Source: Janthinobacterium sp. (GTDB lineage: Bacteria; Pseudomonadota; Gammaproteobacteria; Burkholderiales; Burkholderiaceae_D). From it: DNA of 64,000 bases. Both the position numbers and the translations under genes were made by a program. The notes under the pieces were generated by a model, which saw only the letters and a program-made list of their open reading frames with translations, did no database searches and had not been told where the DNA came from. Shown here piece by piece: positions 8,542 through 62,306 of this stretch. The first letter of the stretch is position 1; each line of letters begins with the position of its first letter. The stretch covers positions 1 to 64,000 of the forward strand of contig NZ_RFSK01000013.1 in NCBI RefSeq assembly GCF_009923995.1. The letters are read 5' to 3'.

Positions 8542-8558
8542 CTGGCACGGCGCTTGCT
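8542..8558 (+). promoter_or_regulatory. Sigma-54 (RpoN) -24/-12 promoter of the nitrate assimilation operon
   Basis: CTGGCACGGCGCTTGCT, exact match to YTGGCACG-N4-TTGCW; predicted +1 near 8569. Confidence 0.85.
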
Positions 8559-8571
8559 AAACAGAAGGGAC

Positions 8572-8639
8572 GGATCAACGGCGATCCCCGGAATACACGC
8601 ACAACGGTCCAACGACGGACCACCTGGACAACGGCGTCC
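8572..8639 (+). ncRNA. Putative ANTAR-responsive leader with three hexaloop hairpins
   Basis: GGATC-AACGGC-GATCC (8572-8587), GGTCC-AACGAC-GGACC (8606-8621), GGAC-AACGGC-GTCC (8626-8639); each loop has A1 and G4. Confidence 0.75.
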
Positions 8640-8684
8640 GCTCTGGCTGATCTTGCATCGGCGGGGGCGGGCGCCGTTTTGTTT
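8631..8684 (+). terminator. Leader intrinsic terminator upstream of the nitrate transporter gene
   Basis: ACGGCGTCCGC (8631-8641) pairs with GCGGGCGCCGT (8667-8677, one G-U), followed by TTTGTTT; 5' arm overlaps the third hexaloop hairpin. Confidence 0.75.
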
Positions 8685-8711
8685 GATCAACGGGATACTT
8701 CGGGAGCCACC

Positions 8712-10007
8712 ATGGCCAGCCAAAAAGCAACGCGCATCGCGCTCTTCTCCTTCGCCACGCCGCCCATGCGCGCATTCCACCTGACGTGGATGGCATTTTT
8801 CGTGTGTTTCTTCGCCTGGTTCGCCTGCGCGCCCCTGATGCCCGTCATCAAGGGCGAATTCGGCCTGTCCCTGGCGCAAGTGGCGAACATCAATATCGCG
8901 GCCGTCGCCATCACCATCCTCGTGCGCCTCATCGTCGGACCGCTGTGCGACCGCTATGGCCCGCGCAAGACCTACACGGGCTTGCTGCTGCTGGGCGCCA
9001 TTCCCGTGCTGGGTGTGGCGGCCTCGCAAAGCTATGAAAGCTTCCTGTTCTTCCGCCTGGGCATCGGCGCCGTCGGTGCCAGCTTTGTCATTACGCAATA
9101 TCACACCTCCGTGATGTTCGCGCCCCGCGTGGTGGGCACGGCGAATGCGGCCGCCGCCGGCTGGGGCAATGCGGGCGGCGGCGCGGCGCAGGCGCTGATG
9201 CCCTTGCTGCTGGGCGCCGTGCTGATGCTGGGCGTGTCCGAATCGCTGGGCTGGCGCATCGCCTTGCTGGTGCCGGGCGTGCTGATGCTGGTGATGGCCG
9301 CCTTGTACTGGCGCTATACGCAGGATTGCCCGGAAGGCAATTACGCGGACTTGCGCGCCGCCGGCGGCGCCATTGAGGGTAGTAAAAAGGGTGGCTGGGC
9401 CAGCTTCAAGGCCGCCAGCGGCAATTACCGCGTGTGGCTGCTGTTCGTCACCTACGGCGCCTGCTTCGGCATCGAGATCTTCATCCACAACATCGCCGCC
9501 GTGTACTACGTCGACCATTTCGGCCTGTCCCTGAAATCGGCGGGCCTGGCCGCCGGCAGCTTCGGCCTGCTGGCCCTGTTCGCCCGCGCCCTCGGTGGCT
9601 GGCTGTCCGATAAATTGGCCCTGCGCGGCAATCTGAACAGCCGCGTGACCCTGCTGTTCATGCTGATGATAGGCGAAGGCGTGGGCCTGCTGTGGTTTGC
9701 GAAAGTCGACAGCGTCACGTACGCCGTCATCGCCATGCTGGTCTTCGGCCTGTTCACCCACATGGCGTGCGGCGCCACCTACGCGCTGGTGCCCTTCATC
9801 GACGGCAAGGCGCTGGGCGGCGTGGCCGGCATCATCGGCGCGGGCGGCAACGTGGGCGCCGTGGCGGCCGGTTTCCTGATGAAGGGCACGGGCGACATCC
9901 GCCAGACCCTGATCATCCTCAGCGCCCTGGTGGTGATCTCGGCCCTGTGCGCCATCGGCGCCCGGTTTACGGGGCTGGCGGCCGAACCGAACATGGCCGC
10001 GGCCTGA
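8712..10007 (+). CDS. narK: MFS nitrate/nitrite transporter (NarK/NasA-type)
   Basis: MFS signature GPLCDRYGPRKT, about 12 TM segments, directly upstream of nirBD; start after the leader. Confidence 0.9.
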   Translation: MASQKATRIALFSFATPPMRAFHLTWMAFFVCFFAWFACAPLMPVIKGEFGLSLAQVANINIAAVAITILVRLIVGPLCDRYGPRKTYTGLLLLGAIPVLGVAASQSYESFLFFRLGIGAVGASFVITQYHTSVMFAPRVVGTANAAAAGWGNAGGGAAQALMPLLLGAVLMLGVSESLGWRIALLVPGVLMLVMAALYWRYTQDCPEGNYADLRAAGGAIEGSKKGGWASFKAASGNYRVWLLFVTYGACFGIEIFIHNIAAVYYVDHFGLSLKSAGLAAGSFGLLALFARALGGWLSDKLALRGNLNSRVTLLFMLMIGEGVGLLWFAKVDSVTYAVIAMLVFGLFTHMACGATYALVPFIDGKALGGVAGIIGAGGNVGAVAAGFLMKGTGDIRQTLIILSALVVISALCAIGARFTGLAAEPNMAAA

Positions 10008-10017
10008 GGAGACCAGC

Positions 10018-12582
10018 ATGAACCATCCCCTGAACATCATCGTCCTTGGCCATGGCATGGTCGGGCATAAGTTCCTGGAACGGCTGGCGCTGGACAACGC
10101 CCCGCACCTGCACGTCACCGTGCTGTGCGAAGAGCCGCGCCCCGCCTACGACAGGGTGCACCTGTCCGAGTTCTTCAGCGGCAAGTCGGCCGAGGACCTG
10201 TCGCTGGTGGCGCCCGGCTTCTTCGACAAGGCCAACGTCGTCCTGAAACTCAATGCGCGCGCCGTCTCCGTCGACCGCGTGGCGAAGACCGTCACGGCCA
10301 GCACGGGCGAGGTGCTGCCTTACGACAAACTGGTGTTTGCCACCGGCTCCTCGCCCTTCGTGCCGCCGCTGCCGGGCAAGGAGCGCGACGGCTGCTTCGT
10401 CTACCGCACCATCGAAGACCTGGAAGCCATGCTGGCCTGGGGCGGCAAGTCCCGCACGGGCGTGGTGATCGGCGGCGGGCTGCTGGGCCTCGAATGCGCG
10501 AAGGCCTTGTGCGACTTGCAACTCGACACGCATGTGGTGGAATTCGCGCCGCGCCTGATGGCCGTGCAGGTGGACGAGGGCGGCGCGCGCGTCCTGCGCC
10601 GCAAGATCGAGGAACTGGGCGTGACCGTGCACACGCAAAAGAACACCCTGGCCATCGTCGACGGCGAGGCGGCCACGCACCGCATGCAGTTCGCCGACGG
10701 CAGCCACCTGGAAGCGGACATGATCGTCTTCTCGGCCGGCATCCGTCCCCGCGACGAACTGGCTCGCGCCTGCGGCCTGGAGGTCGGGCCGCGGGGCGGC
10801 ATCGCCATCGACGACCGCTGCGTCACCTCCGACCCGGACATCTACGCCATCGGCGAATGCGCGCTGTGGGGCGGTCTCGTCTTCGGCCTGGTGGCGCCCG
10901 GCTATGAAATGGCGCGCATCGCGGCGCGCCACCTGCTGCAGGAGGAGGAAGGAGAAGCGGGCGAGGCCGGCTTCAAGGGCGCCGACATGAGCACCAAGCT
11001 CAAATTGATGGGCGTGGACGTGGCCAGCCTGGGCGACCCGCACGGCCATGCGCCGGGCAGCCGCTCCTACCAGTTCATGGACGAGCGCAAGCAGATCTAC
11101 AAGAAGATCGTCGTTTCCGACTGCGGCAAGTACCTGCTGGGCGGCGTGATGGTGGGCGACGCCAGCGAATACGGCACCCTGCTGCAGATGATGCTCAACA
11201 AGATCGAGCTGCCGGCATCGCCCGAATTCCTCATCCTGCCGCAGGCGGACGGCCAGCAAAAGACGGGGCTGGGCGTGGCTGCCTTGCCCGATGGCGCGCA
11301 AATCTGCTCGTGCAACGACGTGTCGAAGGGCGCGCTGTGCGCGGCGGTGGCTGCGGGCGCCACCAGCATCGGCGCCCTGAAGAGTGCTACGTGCGCGGGG
11401 ACGGCCTGCGGCGGCTGCGTGCCCCTGGTGACGCAGGTCATGAAGGCGGAAATGCAGAAGCAGGGTCTGGCAGTCGACAACCACGTGTGCGAGCACTTCG
11501 CGTATTCGCGCCAGGAGCTGCATCATCTGGTGCGTGTGGGCAAGATCCGCAGCTTCGGCGCGCTCCTGGCCGCGCACGGCCGGGGTCTCGGCTGCGACGT
11601 GTGCAAGCCCGTGGCGGCGAATATCCTCGCCTCGTGCTGGAATGATTTCGTGCTGTCGCCCGTCCACGCCAGCCTGCAGGATAGCAATGATTACTTCCTT
11701 GGCAATATCCAGAAGGATGGCACGTATTCCGTCGTGCCCCGCATGCCGGGCGGCGAAGTGACGGCCGATGGCCTGATCGCCGTCGGCATGGTGGCGAAAA
11801 AATATGGTCTCTACACGAAAATCACGGGCGGCCAGCGGGTCGACCTGTTCGGCGCCCGCGTGGAACAGTTGCCGGCCATCTGGGAAGAGTTGATCGCGGC
11901 CGGCTTCGAATCGGGCCACGCCTACGGCAAATCCTTGCGCACGGTCAAATCGTGTGTCGGTTCCACCTGGTGCCGCTACGGCGTGGCCGACAGCGTGGGC
12001 TTTGCGATTCAGCTGGAAAACCGCTACAAGGGCTTGCGCACGCCGCACAAGATCAAGTTCGGCGTCTCCGGCTGCACGCGCGAATGCGCCGAGGCGCAGG
12101 GCAAGGACGTCGGCCTGATCGCCACGGAAAAGGGCTGGAACCTGTACGTGTGCGGCAACGGCGGCATGAAGCCGCGCCACGCGGAACTGATCGCCGCCGA
12201 TCTCGATGAAGCCACCCTGGTGCGTTATGTGGACCGCTTCCTGATGTTCTACGTGCGCACGGCCGACCGCCTGCAGCGCACCAGCGTATGGCGCGACAAC
12301 CTGGAAGGGGGCCTCGATTACCTCAAGCGCGTCATCATCGACGACAGCCTGGGCATCGCCCACGAGCTGGAGGCGGACATGCAGCACGTGGTCGACACCT
12401 ATGCCTGCGAGTGGCAGGCGGCCGTCACCGACCCCGCCGTGCGCCAGCGCTTCCGCCATTTCGTCAACAGCGACCAGCGCGATGAAAACGTCGTCTTTGC
12501 CGCGGAACGGGGCCAGATCCGGCCCGCCACGCCTGAGGAACGCCGCAGCACCGTGATCCCCATCCTTGCCGTGGAGGCGTGA
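10018..12582 (+). CDS. nirB: Nitrite reductase [NAD(P)H] large subunit
   Basis: FAD/NAD domains, BFD-like Cys motifs, siroheme/4Fe-4S motif GVSGCTRECAEAQGKDVG. Confidence 0.95.
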   Translation: MNHPLNIIVLGHGMVGHKFLERLALDNAPHLHVTVLCEEPRPAYDRVHLSEFFSGKSAEDLSLVAPGFFDKANVVLKLNARAVSVDRVAKTVTASTGEVLPYDKLVFATGSSPFVPPLPGKERDGCFVYRTIEDLEAMLAWGGKSRTGVVIGGGLLGLECAKALCDLQLDTHVVEFAPRLMAVQVDEGGARVLRRKIEELGVTVHTQKNTLAIVDGEAATHRMQFADGSHLEADMIVFSAGIRPRDELARACGLEVGPRGGIAIDDRCVTSDPDIYAIGECALWGGLVFGLVAPGYEMARIAARHLLQEEEGEAGEAGFKGADMSTKLKLMGVDVASLGDPHGHAPGSRSYQFMDERKQIYKKIVVSDCGKYLLGGVMVGDASEYGTLLQMMLNKIELPASPEFLILPQADGQQKTGLGVAALPDGAQICSCNDVSKGALCAAVAAGATSIGALKSATCAGTACGGCVPLVTQVMKAEMQKQGLAVDNHVCEHFAYSRQELHHLVRVGKIRSFGALLAAHGRGLGCDVCKPVAANILASCWNDFVLSPVHASLQDSNDYFLGNIQKDGTYSVVPRMPGGEVTADGLIAVGMVAKKYGLYTKITGGQRVDLFGARVEQLPAIWEELIAAGFESGHAYGKSLRTVKSCVGSTWCRYGVADSVGFAIQLENRYKGLRTPHKIKFGVSGCTRECAEAQGKDVGLIATEKGWNLYVCGNGGMKPRHAELIAADLDEATLVRYVDRFLMFYVRTADRLQRTSVWRDNLEGGLDYLKRVIIDDSLGIAHELEADMQHVVDTYACEWQAAVTDPAVRQRFRHFVNSDQRDENVVFAAERGQIRPATPEERRSTVIPILAVEA

Positions 12583-12945
12583 ATGATGAATGACCTGTCC
12601 TTGCCCTTGCCCCGGGATGCCGATTGGCAGCCCGTCTGCGCCCTGCATGACATCGTGCCCGACACGGGGGTCTGCGCCTTGCTGAAAGGCCGCCACGTGG
12701 CCGTGTTCCGCGTCGGCGATGCGTCGCCGCGCGTCTACGCCATCGACAATATCGACCCGAACGCCGGTGCTTCCGTGCTGTCGCGCGGCATCGTGGGCAG
12801 CATCGGCGAGCGCGTCGTCGTCGCCTCGCCGCTGTACAAGCAGCATTTTGACCTGGCCAGCGGCGAATGCATCGAAGCGCCCGGGCACTCCGTGGCGGCC
12901 TGGCCCGCGCGCGTGTTTGCCGACATGGTGTGGGTGGCCCTGTGA
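12583..12945 (+). CDS. nirD: Nitrite reductase small subunit (Rieske-like)
   Basis: IVPDTGVCALLKGRHVAVFRV...YAIDNIDPN...SPLYKQHFDLASG; directly follows nirB. Confidence 0.93.
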   Translation: MMNDLSLPLPRDADWQPVCALHDIVPDTGVCALLKGRHVAVFRVGDASPRVYAIDNIDPNAGASVLSRGIVGSIGERVVVASPLYKQHFDLASGECIEAPGHSVAAWPARVFADMVWVAL

Positions 12946-14168
12946 ACCCGCCCCGGCGCCCCTCCTTGGTGGTGGTCGGCAACGGCATGGCCGGCATGCG
13001 CACGGTCGAGGAATTGCTGAAACTGGCCCCCGACCTGTACGACATCACCGTCTTCGGTGCCGAGCCGCATGGCAATTACAACCGCATCCTGCTCTCCCCG
13101 GTGCTGGCCGGCGAAAAGACGGTGGACGACATCATGCTGCACACGCGCGACTGGTATGCGCAGCACGGCATCACCCTGCACGCGGGCGACCCCGTCGTGC
13201 GCATCGACCGCCAGGCGCGCACCGTGCAGGCCCGCTCCGGCATCACGGTAGGCTACGACCGCCTGCTGCTGGCCACCGGTTCCACGCCGTTCATCGTGCC
13301 AGTGCCGGGCCACCAGCTGCCCGGCGTGATCGGCTTTCGCGATATCAGCGATGTCGACACCATGCTGCGGGCGGCGCGCACGCACCGCCACGCCGTGATC
13401 ATCGGCGGCGGCCTGCTGGGACTGGAAGCGGCCAATGGCCTGCAGCGCCAGGGCATGGACGTCACCGTCGTGCATGCCAGCGGCAGCCTGATGAACCAGC
13501 AGCTGGACCAGCCCGCGTCGCTGCTGCTGAAAACGGCGCTGGAAGCGCGCGGCCTGCGGTTCCTCATGCACGCGCAGACGGCCGAAATCACGGGCACGGA
13601 TCGGGTGCAGGGCGTGCGCTTTGCGGACGGCAGCGTCATCCCCGCCGACCTGGTGGTGATGACGGCCGGCGTGCGCCCCAACATCGCGCTGGCGCAGGCG
13701 GCCGGCCTGCATTGCGAGCGGGCCATCGTCGTCGACGACTGCCTGCAAAGCTATGATCCGCGCGTGTACGCCGTGGGCGAGTGCGTGCAGCACCGGCGCG
13801 CCACCTTCGGCCTGGTGGCGCCCATCTGGGAGCAGGCGCGCGTGTGCGGCGCCCACCTGGCCGGCGCGGGCCACCGGCGCTACGTGCAGCAAGCCAGCGC
13901 CACCAAGCTGAAGGTGACGGGCATCGACCTGTATTCGGCCGGCGACATCCTCGGCGGCGAAGGCAGCGAAGACCTGGTGCTGCGCGACCCGCGTCGCGGC
14001 GTCTACAAGCGCCTGGTGGTGCAGGGCAGCCGCCTGGTGGGCGCCGTGCTGTATGGCGAGGTGCAGGACGGGCCCTGGTATTTCGACCTGATCCAGCAGC
14101 GCCGCGACATCGGCGCGCTGCGCTCCCACCTTTTGTTTGGCCAGGCCCTGTGCGGCCAGGCCGCCTGA
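12942..14168 (+). CDS. NAD(P)/FAD-dependent oxidoreductase, NirB N-terminal/NasB-like; likely nitrate reductase electron-transfer subunit
   Basis: VVVGNGMAGMRTVEEL, IIGGGLLGLEAANGL, YAVGECVQHR; GTG start overlaps the nirD stop. Confidence 0.85.
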   Translation: MNPPRRPSLVVVGNGMAGMRTVEELLKLAPDLYDITVFGAEPHGNYNRILLSPVLAGEKTVDDIMLHTRDWYAQHGITLHAGDPVVRIDRQARTVQARSGITVGYDRLLLATGSTPFIVPVPGHQLPGVIGFRDISDVDTMLRAARTHRHAVIIGGGLLGLEAANGLQRQGMDVTVVHASGSLMNQQLDQPASLLLKTALEARGLRFLMHAQTAEITGTDRVQGVRFADGSVIPADLVVMTAGVRPNIALAQAAGLHCERAIVVDDCLQSYDPRVYAVGECVQHRRATFGLVAPIWEQARVCGAHLAGAGHRRYVQQASATKLKVTGIDLYSAGDILGGEGSEDLVLRDPRRGVYKRLVVQGSRLVGAVLYGEVQDGPWYFDLIQQRRDIGALRSHLLFGQALCGQAA

Positions 14169-14181
14169 CAGGAACCCCCCC

Positions 14182-16851
14182 ATGACGATTTGCGCGCCCG
14201 TGAAAACCACTTGCCCGTACTGCGGCGTCGGCTGCGGCGTCGAAGCGACACGCCTGCCCGATGGCGCCATCCGCATCGCCGGCGATGCCAGCCACCCGGC
14301 CAACCTGGGCAAGCTGTGCGTGAAAGGCTCGGCGCTGGGCGACACCCTGGGCCTGGAGAACCGTTTGCTGCAGCCGCAGATGCGCGTCGACGGCGTGCTG
14401 CGGCGGGTTTCCTGGGATGCGGCGCTGGACCGGGTGGCGGGCGGCCTGCGCGCCATCATAGCCGAGCACGGCTCCGACGCCGTCGCCCTGTATGTCTCGG
14501 GCCAGCTGCTGACGGAAGACTATTACGTCGCCAACAAATTCATGAAGGGCTACGTGGGCAGCGCGAATATCGACACCAATTCGCGCCTGTGCATGTCCTC
14601 GGCCGTCGCGGGCCACAAGCGGGCGTTCGGCGAGGACATCGTGCCCGGCTGCTATGAGGACCTGGAACTGGCCGACATGGTGGTGCTGGTCGGCTCGAAC
14701 ACGGCCTGGTGCCACCCCATCCTGTTTCAGCGCATCGCGCGCCTGAAGGAAGAGCGGCCGGGCATGAAGCTGGTGGTGATCGACCCGCGCCGCACGGCCA
14801 CCTGCGAGCTGGCCGACCTGCATTTGCCCGTGAAGCCGGGCACGGACGTGTGGCTGTTCAACGGCTTGCTGTGCTATCTGGCGCGGGAAGGCGCGATCGA
14901 TGACGCTTTCGTCACGCAGCACAGTGCGGGCCTCGACGACGCGCTGGCCGCCGCGCACGTGGATTGCGGCGACCCGCTGCAGGTGGCGCGCATCTGCAGG
15001 GTCGATGCGCAGGCCCTGCTGGCGTTCTACCAGGCGTTTGCCGCCACGCGCAAGGTGGTCACGGCGTTTTCCCAGGGCGTCAACCAGTCGTCTTCCGGCA
15101 CGGACAAGGTCAACAGCATCATCAACTGCCACCTGGCGACGGGGCGCATCGGCCAGCCCGGCATGGGGCCGTTTTCGCTGACGGGCCAGCCGAATGCCAT
15201 GGGCGGGCGCGAAGTGGGCGGCCTGGCCAACATGCTGGCGGCGCACATGGAGCTGGACAAGCCGCTGCACCGCGACACCGTGCAGGCGTTCTGGGACGCG
15301 CCCCGCATGGCCGGCAAGCCGGGCCTGAAGGCCGTGGAACTGTTCCACGCGATCGAGGCGGGCACGGTGAAAGCCGTGTGGATCATCGCCACCAATCCGC
15401 TGGTGAGCATGCCGGACGCCGACCAGGTGCGCCGCGCGCTGGCCAAATGCGAACTGGTGGTGGTGTCGGACATCAGCGCCGAGTCGGACACGAATGCCCA
15501 TGCCGACGTGCTGCTGCCCGCGCTGGGCTGGGGCGAGAAGGATGGCACGGTGACGAACTCGGAGCGGCGCATCTCGCGCCAGCGCGCGTTCCTGCCGGCG
15601 CCGGGCGAGGCGCGCGCCGACTGGCAGGTGCTGTGCGACGTGGCGCGGCGCATGGGCTACGCGGGCTTCGATTTCACGACGCCGCAAGCCATCTTCGACG
15701 AGCATGCGCGCCTGTCTACCTTTCGCAACGGCGGGGAGCTGGCGCGTCTGTTCAATCTGGCGGGCCTGGAAAACCTGGACGCGGCGCAATACGATGGCCT
15801 GGCGCCGCAGCAGTGGCCGGGGGGCCAGGCGCGCCTGTTCGGCGACGGCCGTTTCGCCCATGCGGACGGGCGCGCCCGCTTCGTGCCCACGCCGCCGCGC
15901 GCACCGCGCAACGCCCCCGACGAGGATTATCCGCTGATCCTCAACACGGGCCGGGTGCGCGACCAGTGGCATACCATGACGCGCACGGGCAAGGCGGCGA
16001 AACTGTCCGGCCACGTGGCCGAGGCTTTCATCGACCTGCACCCGCAGGATGCGCTGCTGTACGGCGTGCGCGAGGGCGAACTGGCGCGCATCTCCAGCGC
16101 CTGGGGCGCCATGGTGGCGCGGGTGGTGCATGGCGGCGGCATCGCGCGCGGCCAGGCCTTCGTGCCCATCCACTGGAGCGACGCGAATGCCTCCGACGCG
16201 CGCGTGGGCGCCGTCGTCAATCCGGCCGTCGATCCCGTCTCGGGCGAGCCGGAATTCAAGCATACGCCCGTGCGCATCGAGCAATTCCGCGTGCACTGGC
16301 ATGCCTTCGTCCTGAGCCGCACCGCGTTAAACCTCGACGGCGTGGCGCACTGGACGCGAATCCAGGGCGGACAGTTCCTGCGCTACGAGCTGGCGGGCCG
16401 CCAGCGCATCGCCGACCTGGGCGCCTGGGCGCGCGCGCTGCTGGGCGTGGCGGACGAGCAGGCCGACTGGCTCGATTATGCGGATGCCAGCGCCGGCGTG
16501 TACCGCGCCGTGCACCTGAACGAGGGGCGCATCGCGCAATGCGTATACGTCTCGCCGCGGCCCGACCTGCCGTCGCGCGCCTGGCTCGCCAGCCTGTTTG
16601 CGCACGCGCAGATGGACGCGGCCGACCGCGCCGGGGTACTGCTGGGCCAGCCCATCGGCAAGGGCGCCGATGCGGGGCCGACCGTGTGCGCATGCTTTGG
16701 CGTGGGGCGCAACACCATCTGCGCCGCCATCCGGGAGCAAGGGCTGACGACGACGGCGCAGGTGACGGCCTGCGTCAGGGCGGGCGGCAATTGCGGCTCC
16801 TGCGTGCCGGAGATACGACAGTTGCTGCTGGAGGTGCGCAGCGTGGCCTGA
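14182..16851 (+). CDS. nasA: Assimilatory nitrate reductase catalytic subunit with C-terminal BFD-like [2Fe-2S] domain
   Basis: TTCPYCGVGCGVEA 4Fe-4S motif, molybdopterin oxidoreductase body, C-terminal VCACFGVGRNTI...GGNCGSCVPEI. Confidence 0.93.
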   Translation: MTICAPVKTTCPYCGVGCGVEATRLPDGAIRIAGDASHPANLGKLCVKGSALGDTLGLENRLLQPQMRVDGVLRRVSWDAALDRVAGGLRAIIAEHGSDAVALYVSGQLLTEDYYVANKFMKGYVGSANIDTNSRLCMSSAVAGHKRAFGEDIVPGCYEDLELADMVVLVGSNTAWCHPILFQRIARLKEERPGMKLVVIDPRRTATCELADLHLPVKPGTDVWLFNGLLCYLAREGAIDDAFVTQHSAGLDDALAAAHVDCGDPLQVARICRVDAQALLAFYQAFAATRKVVTAFSQGVNQSSSGTDKVNSIINCHLATGRIGQPGMGPFSLTGQPNAMGGREVGGLANMLAAHMELDKPLHRDTVQAFWDAPRMAGKPGLKAVELFHAIEAGTVKAVWIIATNPLVSMPDADQVRRALAKCELVVVSDISAESDTNAHADVLLPALGWGEKDGTVTNSERRISRQRAFLPAPGEARADWQVLCDVARRMGYAGFDFTTPQAIFDEHARLSTFRNGGELARLFNLAGLENLDAAQYDGLAPQQWPGGQARLFGDGRFAHADGRARFVPTPPRAPRNAPDEDYPLILNTGRVRDQWHTMTRTGKAAKLSGHVAEAFIDLHPQDALLYGVREGELARISSAWGAMVARVVHGGGIARGQAFVPIHWSDANASDARVGAVVNPAVDPVSGEPEFKHTPVRIEQFRVHWHAFVLSRTALNLDGVAHWTRIQGGQFLRYELAGRQRIADLGAWARALLGVADEQADWLDYADASAGVYRAVHLNEGRIAQCVYVSPRPDLPSRAWLASLFAHAQMDAADRAGVLLGQPIGKGADAGPTVCACFGVGRNTICAAIREQGLTTTAQVTACVRAGGNCGSCVPEIRQLLLEVRSVA

Positions 16852-16913
16852 TAATCTGTCCTTTCCCGCACGGCTTTGTTATATTGCCAGCTCTACAAGA
16901 GAGAGGCAGTGTG

Positions 16914-17444
16914 ATGACAGCAGTACAACATCCTACCGTCTGGCTGACGGGCTTGAGCGGCGCCGGCAAGACCAGCATCGCCCTGGCGCTGGCGCAGGCG
17001 CTGAAGGCGCAGGGCCGCGCCGTGACGGTGCTCGATGGCGACCAGCTGCGCCATGGACTGAACCGCGACCTGGGTTTCACGCCCGCGGACCGGCATGAAA
17101 ACATCCGCCGCACGGCCGAAGTGGCGCGCCTGATGAACAATGCGGGCCTGACCGTCATCGCCGCCTTCATTTCGCCGTACCGCAGCGACCGCGCCACGGC
17201 CGCCGCCATCGTCGGCGCCGGGAATTTCATCGAGGTGCATGTCAGCACGCCGCTGGCCGTGTGCGAGGCGCGCGACGTCAAGGGCCTGTATGCGCAGGCG
17301 CGCGCGGGACGGCTCGCGCAGTTCACGGGCATTTCCGCGCCCTACGAAGCACCGCTGGACGCGGCGCTGACCCTGGACACGGGCACGCTGGCGCTGGACG
17401 AGGCGGTCGAGCGCATTTGCCGGCACCTGCGGCAGCGGCCGTGA
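16914..17444 (+). CDS. cysC: Adenylyl-sulfate (APS) kinase
   Basis: WLTGLSGAGKTSIA P-loop, LDGDQLRHGLNRDLGF, FISPYRSDR. Confidence 0.92.
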   Translation: MTAVQHPTVWLTGLSGAGKTSIALALAQALKAQGRAVTVLDGDQLRHGLNRDLGFTPADRHENIRRTAEVARLMNNAGLTVIAAFISPYRSDRATAAAIVGAGNFIEVHVSTPLAVCEARDVKGLYAQARAGRLAQFTGISAPYEAPLDAALTLDTGTLALDEAVERICRHLRQRP

Positions 17445-60477: not shown

Positions 60478-60554
60478 GCGGCTGTAGCTCAGCTGGATAG
60501 AGTACTTGGCTACGAACCAAGGGGTCGTGGGTTCAATTCCTGCCAGCCGCACCA
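60478..60554 (+). tRNA. tRNA-Arg (anticodon ACG), CCA encoded
   Basis: GCGGCTG/CAGCCGC acceptor stem, CTTGG-CTACGAA-CCAAG anticodon arm, GTTCAATTC T loop. Confidence 0.97.
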
Positions 60555-60636: not shown

Positions 60637-60713
60637 GCGGCTGTAGCTCAGCTGGATAGAGTACTTGGCTACGAACCAAGGGGTCGTGGGTTCAATTCCT
60701 GCCAGCCGCACCA
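60637..60713 (+). tRNA. tRNA-Arg (anticodon ACG), identical copy 2
   Basis: 77-nt identical copy of 60478..60554. Confidence 0.97.
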
Positions 60714-62229: not shown

Positions 62230-62306
62230 GCGGCTGTAGCTCAGCTGGATAGAGTACTTGGCTACGAACCAAGGGGTCGTGGGTTCAATTCCTGCCAGCC
62301 GCACCA
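62230..62306 (+). tRNA. tRNA-Arg (anticodon ACG), identical copy 3
   Basis: 77-nt identical copy; own promoter TTGCCA-N16-TATAAT at 62192-62219. Confidence 0.97.

Follow-up and report, generated by a model that had tools for sequence, protein, structure and literature searches.

Antitermination proteins of the ANTAR type have as their textbook target a pair of hexaloop hairpins. Upstream of the nitrate assimilation operon of a Janthinobacterium strain three such hairpins stand in a row, which raises the question of what kind of switch this leader is, and which of its hairpins, if any, is the extra one. The locus lies within the 64,000-nucleotide stretch of contig NZ_RFSK01000013.1 analysed here (the window), and a preliminary description made from the letters alone had taken it for an ANTAR-type antitermination leader. 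The leader is almost certainly of the NasT (ANTAR) type, and it is highly probable that it is transcribed from a sigma-54 promoter and, under the control of NasS/NasT, regulates narK-nirBD-nasA by transcription antitermination. The kind of switch and its logic are already known from the NasT/NalA leaders. We found no description of three hexaloops as a conserved arrangement in a literature search that did not extend to the primary NalA papers, so that it may have been noticed earlier. In this study, we describe the anatomy of the leader, the exclusivity of its last hairpin and the terminator, the position of its predicted promoter, its conservation and covariation, and its co-occurrence with nasT. 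The parts of the leader are as follows.

8543..8557, + strand: predicted sigma-54 promoter TGGCAC-N5-TTGC (TGGCAC-GGCGC-TTGC), read directly; predicted +1 near 8569
8572..8587, + strand: HP1, 5'-terminal hexaloop hairpin, GGATC-AACGGC-GATCC, read directly and by script
8606..8621, + strand: HP2, middle hexaloop hairpin, GGTCC-AACGAC-GGACC, read by script
8626..8639, + strand: HP3, antiterminator hexaloop hairpin, GGAC-AACGGC-GTCC, read by script
8631..8677, + strand: intrinsic terminator stem, 8631-8644 with 8664-8677 (14 bp) and 8646-8651 with 8657-8662
8677..8684, + strand: terminator U-tract TTTTGTTT, read directly

Direct reading and the script placed the three hairpins exactly where the preliminary description had put them, and A1 and G4 are present in all three hexaloops. 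HP3 can be extended to 8625-8640 by one U-G pair, and the linker between HP2 and HP3 is short (4 nt in the window). Because the 5' arm of the terminator takes five of the six loop bases of HP3 together with its entire 3' arm, HP3 and the terminator are mutually exclusive, as had been proposed; the terminator stem, described earlier as 11 bp (8631-8641 with 8667-8677), is in fact longer, with 14 bp and an inner 6 bp. The minimum-energy fold of 8569-8690 consists of HP1, HP2 and the terminator, and forcing HP3 costs about 8 kcal/mol. By folding, HP3 is transient, being present in an RNA that ends at 8640 and gone once the 3' arm of the terminator has been transcribed.

The element at 8543-8557 is, as far as its sequence tells, a textbook sigma-54 -24/-12 box, and it is a feature overlooked in the preliminary description. 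Since the start predicted from it lies near 8569, HP1 begins at about +4 of the predicted RNA and forms its 5' end. Of 89 family leaders, 88 have this box ahead of HP1, and in a pattern scan the combination of promoter and HP1 was unique within the strain's own genome. A palindrome upstream of the promoter, GCACCGCCAGGTGC, is not claimed as an NtrC site; a loose regular expression matched in 8/89 family leaders and 1/89 control windows. The genes that follow the leader are these.

8712..10007, + strand: narK, nitrate/nitrite MFS transporter, first gene of the operon (Pfam MFS_1; TIGR00886 at 296.4 bits, just under the cut-off of 311.7)
10018..12582, + strand: nirB, assimilatory nitrite reductase large subunit (TIGR02374, 1107.5 bits, above cut-off)
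12583..12945, + strand: nirD, nitrite reductase small subunit (TIGR02378, 112.3 bits, above cut-off)
12942..14168, + strand: FAD reductase resembling the N-terminal part of NirB (nasB-like; Pyr_redox_2 and Rubredoxin_C, partial TIGR02374)
14182..16851, + strand: nasA-like assimilatory nitrate reductase catalytic subunit with a C-terminal BFD domain (Molybdopterin, Molydop_binding, Fer2_BFD)

For the nasA-like gene, the best assimilatory nitrate reductase model was NasC, at 458 bits and under its cut-off. After it, on the same strand, follows an adenylylsulfate kinase gene (16850-17444; APS_kinase, 204.6 bits), a sulfate-assimilation neighbour unexpected at a nitrate operon. Elsewhere in the window, three tRNA-Arg(ACG) genes lie on one strand within 1.9 kb (60478-60554, 60637-60713 and 62230-62306).

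The search for a regulator, suggested in the preliminary description, found nasT (ANTAR, 72.8 bits) directly adjoining nasS (NMT1_2, 294.5 bits) in the same genome, on a different contig from the leader. A domain search found no NIT domain in either of the two ANTAR proteins of the genome, so that neither qualifies as a NasR (NIT-ANTAR) protein. Among 246 genomes of the family, NasT occurs in 75/75 of those with the leader (by BLAST) as against 93/171 of those that lack it (Fisher p ~5e-16, an optimistic value, the genomes being related). Three congeners without the leader possess ANTAR proteins that score weakly, none of them strongly NasT-like, though two of the three assemblies are incomplete. 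The triple leader is present in a relative, G064, that gives no NasT match at the cut-off used; its sole ANTAR protein, at L381:430-1689, is a NIT-ANTAR protein of the NasR type. In this relative the nitrate sensor seems to have been replaced naturally while the RNA was retained. With nasT in the genome, the exclusivity of HP3 and the terminator, and the covariation described below, the proposed ANTAR-type antitermination leader on the nitrate assimilation operon is well borne out.

A BLAST search with the leader returned 92 homologous leaders in the genus and the family. About 86 of the 92 carry three A1/G4 hexaloops under strict settings, a figure that expresses conservation and is no unbiased frequency, since the query was itself a triple leader; the remainder mostly show one mismatch or a broken contig. 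The short matches L053-L055, without hexaloops, were dismissed, and no further triple leader was found in the strain's own genome (next best R1 match, E = 0.43). In the family alignment (alignment A1), which was not fitted to structure, every one of the 43 aligned leaders has A1 and G4 in each of its three loops. Double-change cells number 28 within the family versus 8.1 after shuffling, mostly in HP2, and paired cells reach 95% versus 91% in shuffled and 21-51% in slid controls. HP1 is nearly invariant and HP3 wholly or nearly so; these two hairpins contribute little covariation because they show almost no variation. In many relatives the HP2 stem has 8 bp. Measured from loop to loop, the distance between HP2 and HP3 is tight (13-19 nt), and that between HP1 and HP2 is 21-36 nt. 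Strong terminator stems occupy the same place in the relatives; as the terminator scan ended at the first TTT, some stems with a T run in the loop were shortened, and those rows were not counted against conservation.

Beyond the family, a three-hairpin covariance model matched 47 of 349 order-level and 23 of 369 class-level genomes, nearly all of the matches being full-length. To avoid a bias toward triples, a further search used HP3 and the terminator only, and this yielded 90 strong-terminator leaders outside the family. Under strict settings two further A1/G4 hexaloops lie upstream in 31 of them, where shuffles predict 0.1 such leaders, and a single upstream hexaloop in about 50; two or more are found in 40/90 when one mismatch is allowed. 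The leaders are followed in 77/90 cases by a homologue of the window's own gene set or of its NasS/NrtA-like protein, and the genes behind them are mostly NrtA/NasS-like (58/90), NasB, NarK, NasA or NirB. One two-hexaloop leader behind a sigma-54-like box (L164:1501-2452, genome G363), for which no U-tract was scored, stands directly before an EAL-domain gene of the c-di-GMP phosphodiesterase type; this is of note, as inhibition of NasT by c-di-GMP has been reported from Pseudomonas putida (cited in PMC12830290). Across families, double-change cells number 291 over the whole structure versus 83 after shuffling, with a covariation score of 0.573 versus 0.139, values inflated by an alignment (A2, 71 distinct rows) that was fitted to the model and leans toward the structure. 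In the same alignment, double changes occur at every pair of HP1 and HP2. The HP1 stem varies freely across families, and A1/G4 are kept in 71 of 75 six-base HP1 loops. Covariation, named in the preliminary description as a check on the leader, was thus found both within the family and between families.

In the comparison with Rfam, proposed as another check, no Rfam model matched the leader of the window at its gathering threshold, the sub-threshold matches being narK RNA (RF03032; 23.2 bits, cut-off 43.2) and P11 (RF00625; 16.0 bits, cut-off 70). We take P11 to be the NalA leader. Since P11 appears to be NalA, a leader known for NasT antitermination shows the three-hexaloop form. The NalA leader is sigma-54/NtrC-driven and NasT-antiterminated in Pseudomonas (2026 review PMC12830290). 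When named genomes were scanned for HP3 in its Pseudomonas version, 67 real leaders of the P11 type were obtained, and triple hexaloops are present in 50/67 under strict settings and in 57/67 with one mismatch, where shuffles predict essentially none; two Pseudomonas examples that were checked match P11 at 134-136 bits. Like the leader of the window, this Pseudomonas nirBD leader has a sigma-54 promoter, control by NasT (PMC12830290), an HP3 (GGACAAAGGCGTCC) that overlaps the terminator and, by our own count, three A1/G4 hexaloops in most of its members. It differs in its first gene, which is mostly NasB/NirB-like instead of narK, and in the position of HP1, roughly 12-16 nt farther from the promoter. 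The narK RNA shares with the window a sigma-54-like promoter, an HP1 with an AACGGC loop at the 5' end and a second hexaloop that overlaps the terminator, but it has two hexaloops and lacks the middle hairpin. Our example, on a Pseudomonas mendocina contig (L302:976-1110), consists of the sigma-54-like box, two hexaloops and a terminator; the contig also carries a P11 leader about 3.3 kb further downstream, with no homologue of the window's nitrate genes in between. The three-hairpin form is therefore not the rarity for which it had been taken: most leaders of the home family and most P11-type leaders of Pseudomonas have it, as do about a third of the leaders elsewhere, and it is common to many Proteobacteria.

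How such a leader would work can be proposed by analogy with its better-studied relatives. In Paracoccus, NasS releases NasT on nitrate or nitrite, and after nitrate NasT binds to the leader of nasA (PMC3795266); growth on nitrate is lost when a hairpin of the nas leader is mutated (PMC5424462). The Paracoccus denitrificans nasA leader resembles that of the window in its NasS/NasT control, and its hairpins lie between nasTS and the nas genes (PMC5424462), but two of them (HI and HII) are described there instead of three. Similarly, the dual-hexaloop targets eut (EutV), nasF (NasR) and amiE (AmiR) share the A1/G4 hexaloops, the last of which is exclusive with the terminator (PMC3369931), and have two hexaloops where the window has three. 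The EutX RNA, reported to carry one extra hexaloop beside the dual motif (PMC8934654), is a partial precedent for the third. A1 and G4 are required for ANTAR recognition (PMC3369931). By analogy, then, RNA polymerase would start at about 8569, and in the absence of nitrate NasS would hold NasT, the terminator would absorb HP3, and transcription would stop at about 8684. Nitrate (or nitrite) would release NasT, which would bind the hexaloops of the nascent leader through A1 and G4 and keep HP3 folded, so that the terminator could not form and the operon would be read.

As to how HP1 and HP2 share the work and what a third hairpin is for, we offer a hypothesis only. HP1, the first hairpin to emerge at the 5' end, would most likely be an early loading site for NasT, and HP2 would be a second site, or a spacer hairpin where its loop has decayed, that holds NasT near HP3 as the latter emerges. 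For EutV, whose dimer binds one hexaloop at a time, not two of one RNA, and whose function is abolished by long linkers, it has been proposed that one hairpin recruits and the next antiterminates (PMC8934654). Since such a dimer cannot hold two hexaloops and long linkers abolish its function, HP1, at its distance from HP2, may not act by simple hand-off. Against the scheme stand the leaders outside the family with one upstream hexaloop (50/90, strict), which indicate that three are not obligatory, and the location of nasTS away from the leader's contig.

Several other accounts of the hairpins have to be weighed. It is possible, although somewhat less than probable, that HP1 and HP3 are the ancestral switch, with the middle hairpin serving chiefly as a spacer to bring them closer together, its hexaloop being secondary. 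Outside the family, the 55 leaders with a recognisable sigma-54 box retain the 5'-end hexaloop in 43 cases and a hexaloop adjoining HP3 in 29, the two being the same hairpin in six. Because the 5'-end hexaloop is the commoner one there, the promoter-proximal hexaloop appears to be the more persistent partner of HP3. The middle segment also tends to fold in the 18 leaders that lack a middle hexaloop (mean z -2.2, below -1.5 in 10/18), and the two hexaloops of the Rfam narK RNA stand right behind a sigma-54-like promoter. However, a plain spacer would have no need of A1 and G4, which the HP2 loop keeps throughout the home family (43/43). This constraint and the tight distance to HP3 argue that HP2 is read in the home family; the middle hairpin may be a relay, a spacer or both. 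At L153, L178, L208, L246 and L248 the middle hairpin persists with a loop that is no longer a clean A1/G4 hexaloop.

The converse assignment, which the preliminary description had favoured, makes HP2 and HP3 the core of the switch and HP1 the extra hairpin. In its full form, HP2 and HP3 would be a complete ANTAR switch and HP1 no NasT site at all, merely a 5'-end hairpin for RNA stability or promoter escape, as its start at about +4 might suggest. The spacing agrees with this, being tight between HP2 and HP3 and more variable between HP1 and HP2, and short linkers are required by EutV (PMC3369931, PMC8934654). Yet a stability hairpin would not need A1 and G4 in its loop, whereas in the HP1 loop both bases are invariant in the family and largely kept across families, and outside the family it is the middle hexaloop that is lost more often, not the one at the 5' end. 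We therefore consider this account unlikely and the view of HP1 as the extra hairpin doubtful, although the tight spacing of HP2 and HP3 in the family stands.

HP1 had also been suggested to act as an alternative pairing partner. With HP3 held open, its AACGGCG loop would capture the freed 3' arm of the terminator and keep the terminator apart. In the window, the best fold of the leader with HP3 forced does exactly this (-48.8 versus -42.2 kcal/mol with all three hairpins kept), but of 88 family leaders just 32 could form the 7-nt pairing; the remaining 56 and all Pseudomonas leaders tested reach at most 4 nt, and HP1 folds alone before the terminator arm exists. We rejected HP1 as a conserved pairing partner, and a role of this kind is very improbable.

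The second ANTAR protein of the genome, a REC-ANTAR protein on contig 108 (L002:1438-2070; 42.5 bits), is a most unlikely main reader of the leader; it is present, but similarly weak ANTAR proteins are kept in congeners without the leader, whereas NasT tracks the leader, and its neighbours, by eye alcohol-dehydrogenase-like and thiE-like, are not nitrate genes. That the hairpins arose by chance, or belong to an ordinary unregulated terminator, can be set aside: a strong terminator alone could explain the low folding energy of 8560-8712 (z = -3.1), but conservation and covariation contradict this reading, as do dinucleotide shuffles of 8569-8684, none of which (0/5,000) reached three A1/G4 hexaloop hairpins at a stem score of 4, a score of 5 leaving two qualifying hairpins in the window.

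Since the triple is not a local curiosity, the finding is broader and less exotic than it seemed. It points to Rfam P11 and narK RNA being members of a single family of NasT leaders, of which models with two hairpins give an incomplete picture. What is at stake is how a dimer makes use of two loops that cannot be held at once. Rather tentatively, and as a proposal that may well prove wrong, the three-site array could be a distinct, old and widespread ANTAR design, composed of a loading hairpin, a relay or spacer and an antiterminator, and read by a NasT oligomer larger than a dimer. Free Paracoccus NasT, at ~130 kDa, was described as 'broadly consistent with a hexamer' (PMC3795266). If this were true, antitermination would be cooperative in nitrate, and the design would fit with a single RNA that either NasT or NasR could serve. 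The natural variants, in which the middle loop is missing or decayed or NasT has apparently been swapped for NasR, are ready constructs for assigning recruitment, relay and antitermination to the individual hairpins.
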